5,796 bases of DNA from assembly GCA_030591745.1 (NCBI GenBank), contig JAUVAM010000287.1, positions 1 through 5,796 on the forward strand, written 5' to 3'. This document shows positions 2,241 to 5,796 of this stretch, one piece after another. The translations under genes were made by a program, and so were the position numbers. The notes under the pieces were generated by a model, which saw only the letters and a program-made list of their open reading frames with translations, was not told the DNA's origin and made no database searches. This DNA is from Deltaproteobacteria bacterium (GTDB taxonomy: Bacteria; Myxococcota; B64-G9). Numbering within the stretch: position 1 is the first letter of the stretch; every line of letters starts with the position of its first letter.

Positions 2241-2290
2241 GGGCTGATAATGCCATGATGTGGCGAAAAATACCAGCATGAAGTTGATTT

Positions 2291-2362: not shown

Positions 2363-2378
2363 TGGCCCGGATGATGCT
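2363..2378 (+). promoter_or_regulatory. Sigma-54 (-24/-12) promoter of pspABC
   Basis: TGGCCCG-GATG-ATGCT matches the consensus TGGCACG-N4-TTGCW at 10 of 12 defined positions. The invariant GG (2364-2365) and GC (2376-2377) are exactly 10 bases apart. The predicted start is near 2389, giving a leader of about 41 bases before the pspA ATG. A poorer element with the same spacing, TGGCGAG-TTTG-GAGCT (2344-2359), lies 19 bp upstream and is a less likely alternative. The adjoining PspF gene and PspA strongly support the call. Confidence 0.85.
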
Positions 2379-3897: not shown

Positions 3898-4077
3898 ATG
3901 AACATATTTGCAACCCTCATCTTTGTCTTGGGAGGCATGAGCGGCATGGGTACCACGGCCGCCATCAACCAACCTTTGCTGATCAAGCCCATACAGCATG
4001 TCTTCCAGGTCACGCCCTACCTGCTGTGTTTGCCTGGCGAGGTGGTGGAACGAGCCGGCACCGAAAAGAGCCAATAA
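3898..4077 (+). CDS. Small hydrophobic protein downstream of pspC, unknown
   Basis: A 59-codon ORF that I do not recognise. It starts MNIFATLIFVLGGMSGMGTT, a hydrophobic and glycine-rich segment that could be a membrane helix, then a proline-containing middle and a polar tail ending GTEKSQ. The start is supported by a very strong purine-rich ribosome binding site (GGGGAGGAG, 3881-3889) eight bases upstream of the ATG, and about 73% of third codon positions are G or C. It lies 79 bases after pspC on the same strand, where enterobacteria have pspD, but shows no resemblance to PspD. It may be a new accessory member of the operon or a chance ORF; there is no homology evidence. Confidence 0.5.
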   Translation: MNIFATLIFVLGGMSGMGTTAAINQPLLIKPIQHVFQVTPYLLCLPGEVVERAGTEKSQ

Positions 4078-4163
4078 ACCGGCGTCCCTCCTTAACGAAA
4101 AACTGATACCTACGAAGCCTTTGCGCGGATTTTTGATGGACTCTTCGGCTTCGATCTCTCCTA

Positions 4164-4179
4164 TGTGACCGGGATCACA
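4164..4179. promoter_or_regulatory. CRP-family-type palindrome
   Basis: TGTGA-CCGGGA-TCACA has both half-sites identical to the core CRP consensus (TGTGA-N6-TCACA). Its centre is about 47 bp upstream of the predicted sigma-54 start and 14 bases separate it from the -24 element. It could be a CRP/FNR-superfamily site. At sigma-54 promoters a factor bound this close more often modulates or represses than acts as the remote enhancer protein. The site is seen; the identity of the binding protein is inferred. Confidence 0.5.
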
Positions 4180-4192
4180 GGTGGCCTCTGTT

Positions 4193-4208
4193 TGGCACGG
4201 GGGTTGCT
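4193..4208 (+). promoter_or_regulatory. Consensus sigma-54 promoter of the macroglobulin gene
   Basis: TGGCACG-GGGG-TTGCT matches TGGCACG-N4-TTGCW at every defined position. The GG (4194-4195) and GC (4206-4207) have the required 10-base separation. The predicted start is near 4219, about 68 bases before the ATG at 4287, with no gene between. This is a better match than the pspA promoter. Transcription would need an AAA+ activator; PspF is the nearest candidate, but the palindrome found upstream of pspA is not repeated here. Confidence 0.85.
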
Positions 4209-4221
4209 TGAATCATAGCCC

Positions 4222-4240
4222 TGCAGGAGTTTGTCCTGCA
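4222..4240 (+). other. Hairpin at the 5' end of the macroglobulin mRNA
   Basis: TGCAGGA (4222-4228) pairs perfectly with TCCTGCA (4234-4240) around the loop GTTTG. If the start site is near 4219, the hairpin begins about four nucleotides from the RNA 5' end, where such stems commonly protect mRNA from decay. No T-run follows, so termination is not supported. It is well upstream of the gene's ribosome binding site (4276-4280). Confidence 0.55.
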
Positions 4241-4286: not shown

Positions 4287-5796
4287 ATGAAGAGGATGAA
4301 AAGGGTCGGATTTTTGCCGATGAGCGGTGTGATTTTGTTGGTTTTGGCTGTGTCCTTCGCGGGTTGTTTCGGCGAAGAGGAGACAAGCGCCATTGAGGTC
4401 ACGGAGCTTGCCGGTCTGCGCATCGATGAGGCGCGCATGCAGGCCTTGCCGGATGGCAGTCGTTTGGATTTCCAGATTGTCTTGGAACGTACGGAAGACA
4501 AGGTGTTCCAGGGGGTTTTGGAGGCTGAAGTCCGGGATTTGGATGGCCGGCAGATCGATCGGCAGGTCCGGACCTTTATATTAAACGAGTCCGAACGCTC
4601 TTTCGCCTTGAACTTTGAGGGCATCGAGGGTGGCTTAGGTCTGGAAGACCTGGCGCGCTACTTAGTGGATTATCGGGTCGAATGGGAAAACCACGCGCTT
4701 TTCGGTTCCCGCTCGGTATACGCGGCCGCTGAAAAACTGGAGACCCAAGTCTTGGCCCCTTCCCGCCTCTATGAAGGAGCGGGCAGCTTTTTGCGGGTTA
4801 TGACCCGCAATCCCACAAGTGGAGAGGCCCGATCCGATGTGAACGTGGTCGTTGAGTTGCAACTCGAAGACACGACGGTGCCATTAGGACAGGGACGCAC
4901 CAACGAAAAGGGCACGGCCGAGATCTATTTGCAATCCCCTGCCGACCTGGTGGGTCAGGGCCAGATGGTCGTGACCATCCAACCACCCCAGGGCGAAGTG
5001 GAGACCCTGAGCGGGGTGGTGGAGATCATGCGGGAGGAGAAAATCCTTCTGACCACCGACAAGCCGATCTACCAGCCGGGCCAGACCATGCATCTGCGGT
5101 CTCTGTCTCTTAGACGCCCCGCCTTGCGGCCCGTGGCCGATGAGGCCTTTGTGTTTGAGGTACGCGACGGCAAGGGCAACAAGGTTTTCAAGGAACAGGG
5201 TCTGACCAACGCCTTCGGCATCGCCTCGGTCGACTTCAAGTTGGCCGGCGAAGTCAACATGGGGCCCTTTGAGATCATGTGCCGCGTGGGCACCACCGAG
5301 GCCATCAAGACCGTGGAGGTCAAACGCTACGCCCTGCCCAAGTTCGGCGTGAGCTTCTCTCCAGACAGGGGCTACTACCTGCCCGGTCAGCGGGTGGCGG
5401 GACAAGTACAGGCCGCTTATTTCTTCGGCAAGCCCGTGGCCAATGCCGAAGTGCGGGTCAAGGTCTTGACCTTTGACGTCGGTCTGAACCAGATCGGCGA
5501 GGTCGTGGGCCAAACCGACGATGAGGGCTTCTTTTCTTTCAGCTACCAGTTGCCCACGGTCTTTGCCGGCATCGATCTCTTGCAGGGCGATGCCTATCTT
5601 CAGTTTGACCTGGAGGTCACGGATTTGGCCGAGCACGTCGAGAAAGCAAGCGTGGTCAGCGTGGTCGCCGCCGAGCCCTTGAAGGTATCTTTGGTGCCCG
5701 AAAGCGGCGAATTGGTGCCCGGCCTGCCCAACCAGATTTTTGTGGTCACCGCCGATCCCACTGGCAGGCCCTTAAGCGCCGTGGTGCAGATCAGCG
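4287..5796 (+). CDS. Alpha-2-macroglobulin-family lipoprotein (5' part, runs off window)
   Basis: The first 503 codons of a bacterial alpha-2-macroglobulin, a periplasmic membrane-anchored protease trap. Seen: lipoprotein signal peptide with basic start MKRMKR, hydrophobic core 13-25 and lipobox FAGC with Cys27 (Phe at -3 is slightly unusual); an N-terminal beta-rich domain of uncertain type (about 30-150); an MG1-like domain (about 152-250); the MG2 signature TTDKPIYQPGQ (256-266); and an MG3-like domain starting KRYALPKF (346-353) with YYLPGQRV and YFFGKPVANAEV. The thioester (CxEQ), bait and receptor-like regions, if present, lie beyond the right edge, so the class cannot be settled; full-length relatives are usually well over 1,500 residues. 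The ATG at 4287 has GGAGG (4276-4280) six bases upstream; an in-frame ATG at 4296 is an alternative. It is preceded by a perfect sigma-54 promoter. The pbpC partner often found beside bacterial macroglobulins is not seen here. Confidence 0.93.
   Translation, partial: MKRMKRVGFLPMSGVILLVLAVSFAGCFGEEETSAIEVTELAGLRIDEARMQALPDGSRLDFQIVLERTEDKVFQGVLEAEVRDLDGRQIDRQVRTFILNESERSFALNFEGIEGGLGLEDLARYLVDYRVEWENHALFGSRSVYAAAEKLETQVLAPSRLYEGAGSFLRVMTRNPTSGEARSDVNVVVELQLEDTTVPLGQGRTNEKGTAEIYLQSPADLVGQGQMVVTIQPPQGEVETLSGVVEIMREEKILLTTDKPIYQPGQTMHLRSLSLRRPALRPVADEAFVFEVRDGKGNKVFKEQGLTNAFGIASVDFKLAGEVNMGPFEIMCRVGTTEAIKTVEVKRYALPKFGVSFSPDRGYYLPGQRVAGQVQAAYFFGKPVANAEVRVKVLTFDVGLNQIGEVVGQTDDEGFFSFSYQLPTVFAGIDLLQGDAYLQFDLEVTDLAEHVEKASVVSVVAAEPLKVSLVPESGELVPGLPNQIFVVTADPTGRPLSAVVQIS

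Follow-up and report, generated by a model that had tools for sequence, protein, structure and literature searches.

A conserved sigma54 control region ahead of a bacterial alpha-2-macroglobulin gene appears to answer to a sensor system that may also control serpins, and not to the neighbouring PspF

What controls a bacterial alpha-2-macroglobulin (A2M) gene that follows directly upon a set of psp genes? Work on A2Ms and serpins of bacteria has mostly treated them one protein at a time, with little settled about the conditions and purpose of their synthesis. Known bacterial A2Ms are linked to PbpC, and one of them, YfhM, is a thioester-bearing lipoprotein. YfhM (ECAM) of E. coli is proposed to be a trap for foreign proteases (PMC4498604), and MagD of P. 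aeruginosa is reportedly another. The window, by which we mean the whole stretch of 5,796 nucleotides analysed here, contains in order an acyltransferase gene, pspF (on the minus strand), pspA, a pspB-like gene (scoring below the cut-off of its model), pspC, a small open reading frame and the 5' part of the A2M gene. The following features are used in the description.

2261..2274, plus strand: PspF-type site TGGCGAAAAATACC upstream of pspA, a comparison element (p 0.018 in leave-one-out; motif chosen by eye)
2363..2378, plus strand: sigma54-like core of pspA, TGGCCCGGATGATGCT, a comparison element (2 mismatches)
4095..4106, plus strand: possible second, distal site for the activator, ACGAAAAACTGA, located 30 bp above the main enhancer-like site (weak here; aligned by eye)
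4125..4136, plus strand: main UAS (enhancer-like site) GCGGATTTTTGA, the predicted target of a response regulator of the NtrC family (matrix score 13.3 bits, equalled by 0 of 1000 shuffles)
4164..4179, plus strand: CRP-family palindrome TGTGACCGGGATCACA, exact here and conserved in position in the relatives G001, G004, G005 and G008
4193..4208, plus strand: sigma54 -24/-12 core TGGCACGGGGGTTGCT, an exact match
4218..4219, plus strand: predicted transcription start, placed 12 bases past the GC of the -12 element
4287..5796, plus strand: A2M lipoprotein gene, 5' part (MG2 and MG3), running past the end of the window

A scan of genome contigs yielded five relatives (G001 to G005), all titled Deltaproteobacteria MAGs. 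L001 is a full-length copy of the A2M gene, 97% identical at the protein level to the part in the window, so that the two are hardly independent; the comparison set consists of the nine genomes of its class, of unstated completeness. A close A2M orthologue is present in six of these nine genomes, with 59–98% identity over the main stretch and 50–51% for the amino-terminal pieces of G003 and G004; leaving L001 aside, the orthologues are 50–72% identical across the matched stretches. In what follows, counts out of six merge the window with G001, while counts out of seven keep both apart, and the regulator, kinase and CRP-family protein of the window's own organism are assigned from its relatives.

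The best start of the A2M gene is the ATG at 4287, with GGAGG six bases ahead of it and, as read by eye, a lipoprotein-like signal behind it. Within the window the protein contains MG2 (E 9.5e-21) and MG3 (E 6.1e-6), and the two full-length relatives scanned, L001 and the A2M of G008, have MG2, a bait region, TED_complement and a receptor-binding domain; L001 shows an A2M domain as well. A GCFEQ motif is present in all four full-length relatives read, including L001. With MG2 and MG3 in the window, and the bait region and TED/thioester part in the relatives only, the gene probably encodes an A2M of the thioester type. As a putative protease trap it resembles YfhM and MagD, from which it differs in the TED_complement domain and GCFEQ of the relatives read. 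Another difference is the next gene, which encodes not PbpC but an exported conserved protein of about 365 amino acids, found directly 3' of A2M at L103:8156-9244, L102:13874-14962, L100:15914-17023 and L002:7824-8915. No Pfam family was matched by the two of these partner proteins scanned; matches at E≤0.001 occur in 13 of 195 genomes of the phylum, of which only five are strong, all within the nine-genome class. The A2M gene of G004 (L004 / L043 / L063, G004:C459) is split across two frames near residue 228–246, by a frameshift or an assembly error. The open reading frame at 3898–4077, between pspC and the A2M promoter, encodes 59 amino acids, is also present in L001 and has no Pfam or NCBIfam matches.

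The sigma54 core TGGCACGGGGGTTGCT is the sole match to TGGCACNNNNNTTGCW without mismatches in the window, in agreement with the earlier note, which had described an exact core inside 4164–4208. In all six orthologue upstream regions, TGGCAC-N5-TTGC is located roughly 50–110 bp ahead of the A2M start codon, which argues for sigma54 control of the protease-trap gene as far as DNA sequence can. As a control, 22 other A2M-family genes of the clade were fetched, and none of the nine with a readable start has a core better than 8/12. A simple consensus scan gave no sigma70-type promoter near the A2M gene, and Rfam gave no RNA element in its leader. Just past the predicted start, at 4222–4240, there is a perfect 7-bp inverted repeat (TGCAGGA/TCCTGCA), which L001 shares and which is not apparent in the remaining relatives of the alignment.

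A third element, overlooked by the earlier note, is an enhancer-like site (RCRGATTTCTGA) at 4125–4136. The GCGGATTTTTGA of the window aligns with a conserved block of the relatives, CGGATTTCTGAG, upstream of the palindrome. The matrix for this main UAS was built from the sites behind the response-regulator gene described below in eight genomes; the alignment of these sites had been made by eye and with knowledge of the A2M consensus, and the test was then repeated in reverse. It locates a site in six of the seven A2M upstream regions, that of G005 failing with p 0.136. In G003, G004 and G008 the second-best matrix match is a second copy, 30–31 bp above the main UAS, while the second-best match of the window is elsewhere and weak.

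Two UAS sites were found just past the stop codon of a gene for an NtrC-family response regulator, for which all nine genomes have one clear orthologue (63–68% identity; next best 44–51%). The one scanned contains a receiver domain, a sigma54 AAA+ domain and a Fis-type HTH; among 25 of the 112 matched NCBIfam models none is above its cut-off, AtoC being the best with 478 bits against 714. In the reverse test, for which the matrix was built solely from the six A2M sites, the best match falls 2–22 bp from the first base of the regulator stop codon in eight of the nine genomes, with p≤0.005 in seven and 0.023 in one; in G009, where the contig ends, the site was not found (p 0.28). Among paralogous regulators, p≤0.05 was reached behind one of 18 (21 had been fetched; two were dropped because the match fell short of the carboxy-terminus and one was left out). 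In all eight readable cases the regulator-side UAS is followed by a core of 10–11/12, ahead of a gene for an exported coiled-coil-like protein. Directly upstream of the regulator, a kinase reading frame is present in six of eight neighbourhoods (a listing that omits L297); G006 and G008 show other frames under the ORF filter. The membrane kinases of G003 and G001, the two scanned, contain HAMP, HisKA and HATPase domains. A regulator with a linked kinase, and a UAS common to its locus and its targets in the relatives, are what a two-component regulon of the NtrC family would present.

Across the nine genomes, the pattern TCAGAWWTCTGAG with at most one mismatch has 145 strand-wise matches, against 35 for the reversed pattern; as the motif is palindromic, both figures count many sites twice. 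The loci fetched, which for G009 cover part of its matches, contain 133 strand-wise sites; 40–140 bp downstream of these there are 19 strong sigma54 cores, including that of one A2M gene, against 11 in the other approximately 1900 bp of the ±1000 surroundings. The UAS-to-core distances cluster at 77–78, 89, 96–99, 108–109 and 116, plus two longer ones. Helical phasing of UAS and core has a p of 1.5e-4 for the 18 non-A2M promoters (excluding L158, the A2M of G003), a value that is optimistic because some of these promoters are homologous; for all 34 the best period is 10.4 bp. The consensus core and the helically phased upstream site, which is non-significant in G005, together make the A2M promoter a probable sigma54 promoter of the enhancer-dependent kind. 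A separate observation is that TTCTGA before a core gives 12 matches, five at A2M genes and seven elsewhere, the seven to be set against two for the reversed control. Four of the genes downstream, read by eye, include gspC-like, polysaccharide and S8-protease genes; in L077 (G008:C28:105872), also read by eye, a sigma54-type core is located ahead of a gspC-like type II secretion gene.

Among the first genes found behind a UAS and core are those of three lipoprotein-like serpins in three genomes. The nine genomes contain 31 serpin matches, of which 26 were retained after dropping one without a locus and four without the amino-terminus. Fifteen of the 26 have a core of at least 10/12 at -33 to -67 and one more has 9/12, against a background of 0.0027 per 50 bp; the other ten have no core of 9/12 or better close to the start. 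Of these 16 core-bearing promoters, 11 also have a UAS at p≤0.002 and three at 0.026–0.046, and two with good cores are without it. Three of the serpins had first been met in the UAS search, so that the two routes overlap. The set behind the UAS is mixed, containing also FecR-domain, beta-propeller, S41-peptidase and Cys-rich exported proteins. The exact UAS-plus-core pattern, which does not capture the site of the window itself, has 14 occurrences in 12 of the 195 genomes of the phylum; its reversed control has 0. Six of these units are inside the nine-genome class and eight outside, where one precedes a serpin gene (G016) and seven precede the gene of an exported protein of 441–443 amino acids. 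The latter (L325-L331) belong to seven large genomes of 11.2–13.5 Mb, and the two scanned are without a Pfam match.

The explanation that we regard as probable is a regulon run by a kinase and a sigma54 activator, with exported protease inhibitors among its members and a CRP-family input that is almost confined to A2M. Sigma54-RNA polymerase would transcribe the A2M gene from the core at 4193–4208, and one response regulator of the NtrC family, paired with the HAMP-HisKA-HATPase membrane kinase, would switch it on. The regulator would bind the palindromic UAS at 4125–4136, perhaps also 4095–4106, and, as UAS and core share a helical face, contact the polymerase by looping of the DNA. The regulator would drive a set of exported proteins in which protease inhibitors are prominent, namely the thioester A2M lipoprotein and the lipoprotein serpins, and a CRP-family protein would bind the palindrome within the loop, at A2M and at the one other such UAS promoter found. 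The elements with their conservation and phasing, the common sites and the gene neighbourhoods follow directly from the computation; which protein occupies which site, in which direction the CRP-family protein acts and what the signal is are what we infer.

Two-component sigma54 regulons of the NtrC family generally have the properties seen in NtrBC, ZraSR and AtoSC. As in those systems, there is a kinase with a regulator of receiver, AAA+ and Fis-type HTH domains, and UAS sites are located upstream of -24/-12 cores, whereas the predicted targets here, protease inhibitors along with further surface proteins, are exported. SerRK of Bifidobacterium breve is reportedly a two-component system that controls a serpin; it is like the present case in placing a bacterial serpin under two-component control, but it belongs to a Gram-positive organism and is not known to involve sigma54 or an A2M. 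Among the matches listed from the open-licence literature, the available portions of the texts place neither an A2M nor a serpin gene under sigma54.

The part of the CRP-family protein is the point at which the regulon can be read in two ways. The palindrome TGTGACCGGGATCACA is indeed exact at 4164–4179, as had been claimed, and is the only match to TGTGA-N6-TCACA with up to two mismatches in the window; the gap to the core is 13 bases (4180–4192) and not the 14 given before. The proposed conservation of both motifs is upheld for the core in all six upstream regions and for the palindrome, at 9–10/10, in four (10/10 in G001, G004 and G008; 9/10 in G005); it is degenerate in G002 (8/10) and was not found in the A2M upstream region of G003. 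With even base composition and independence assumed, a palindrome of at least 9/10 has a chance of about 0.0013 per spacer, and four in six about 5e-11. The genomes of all six A2M-bearing relatives encode a close CRP-family orthologue with the recognition helix SRETVSR, residues that presumably read TGTGA; TGTGA half-sites serve several regulators. The protein of G001, the one compared, matches solved structures, including catabolite gene activator chains, at E of about 1e-24. Palindrome and encoded regulator with a matching helix suggest a CRP-family operator, and a CRP-family modulator, as proposed in the earlier note, is supported to that extent. A palindrome of 9/10 occurs at only one of the 18 non-A2M UAS promoters, which makes the CRP input almost exclusive to A2M; the exception, the sole non-A2M triple found, belongs to a FecR-domain gene (L172, G005:C445) with a UAS and a 10/12 core. 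The strict composite pattern of CRP site and core occurs at A2M genes only, in two of five genomes, looser palindromes being mostly without a core. At G004:C225, a plus-strand UAS has a 9/10 palindrome with no core following.

In the same regulon, the CRP-family protein might act as a repressor that blocks the contact of activator and polymerase at high cyclic-nucleotide levels. The glnAp2, dctA and Pu promoters resemble that of A2M in combining a CRP input with sigma54 and an upstream activator. PMC3900584 describes all three as down-regulated by CRP-cAMP in E. coli; at glnAp2 this happens because the activator is prevented from reaching the polymerase. With its centre near -47.5 or -56.5 relative to the predicted start, the palindrome would suit such a role. 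They differ in that the A2M palindrome is exact, within the loop and at a fixed distance from the UAS, while for Pu the same source reports no potential CRP site (PMC3900584). Between the TGA of the UAS and the palindrome there are 30 bases in four genomes and 29 bases in G008, a spacing of 29–30 in five of six, while the palindrome stands 13 or 22 bases from the core, which fits a UAS-palindrome unit better than blocking at the core. Repression thus keeps a real, if lesser, share of the probability; the constant distance from the UAS leans weakly towards an architectural co-activator, which we consider slightly more likely.

The UAS might instead be bound by another activator, the response-regulator locus being merely one more target. 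Each genome encodes many sigma54 activators (8–15 matches at E≤1e-90), and a site behind a gene does not prove what the gene product binds. The site is at the same place behind the regulator in eight of nine genomes and scarcely ever behind its paralogues, as counted above, and we consider this alternative unlikely.

The earlier note had placed A2M in the PspF regulon, coupling inner-membrane repair to protease trapping. The psp genes are located directly upstream of A2M in the window and G001, G002 and G005, three lineages in all; pspA and A2M both have sigma54-type cores, and core-like sequences, by eye, also precede pspA in the relatives. The PspF regulon is controlled by sigma54, as A2M probably is, and in E. 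coli consists of pspABCDE and pspG (PMC2763126). However, a PspF-type motif, picked by eye from the pspA upstream regions, is found in five of six of these (p≤0.022 in leave-one-out; not in G006) and in none of six A2M upstream regions (p 0.11–0.69), while the A2M-type UAS matrix finds none of seven pspA upstream regions (p 0.07–0.65). Core and UAS are also kept at A2M where psp is non-adjacent, being on separate contigs (G003 and G004) or represented only by distant PspA paralogues (G008). PspF of the window contains no receiver domain, unlike the candidate regulator. Control of A2M by PspF was rejected on these reciprocal motif tests and is very improbable; of the previous interpretation, sigma54 control, the CRP-family modulator and the conservation of the motifs are supported to the extent that sequence allows, and membership of the PspF regulon is not. 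In the viral contigs searched there is no PspA relative. Distant PspA paralogues near PspF-like AAA+ regulators are present in L086, L087, L088 and L093, and three of the four regulator frames have, by eye, a receiver-like amino-terminal part (L093 is cut), which suggests that the clade has a further psp-like locus of the two-component kind.

Chance matching, finally, for which it may be said that short consensus motifs are common and that neither motif is enriched in the window at relaxed stringency (32 against 27.7 in shuffles for the core at 3 mismatches, 1 against 1.68 for the palindrome at 2), so that the argument depends on exact matching and, to a greater degree, on conservation, was rejected since core, palindrome and spacing are conserved among orthologues as diverged as these, and has next to no probability.

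The control region ahead of A2M is real and conserved, and a sensor system seems to control A2M and serpins. Whether this amounts to a dedicated antiprotease programme, in which a kinase and sigma54 activator sense attack and raise lipid-anchored thioester A2M traps and serpins jointly, with a cyclic-nucleotide gate of the CRP family in the A2M loop, we regard as evenly balanced; the signal would likely be envelope or proteolytic attack, and the programme, if true, would be ancient in the phylum because a UAS-core unit precedes a serpin gene in G016, outside the nine-genome class. The common UAS, the candidate regulator and the linked sensor kinase make two questions testable, namely which signal induces the antiproteases of bacteria and whether traps and serpins form a single defence. 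Common control of A2M and serpins would point to a coordinated antiprotease defence in bacteria.
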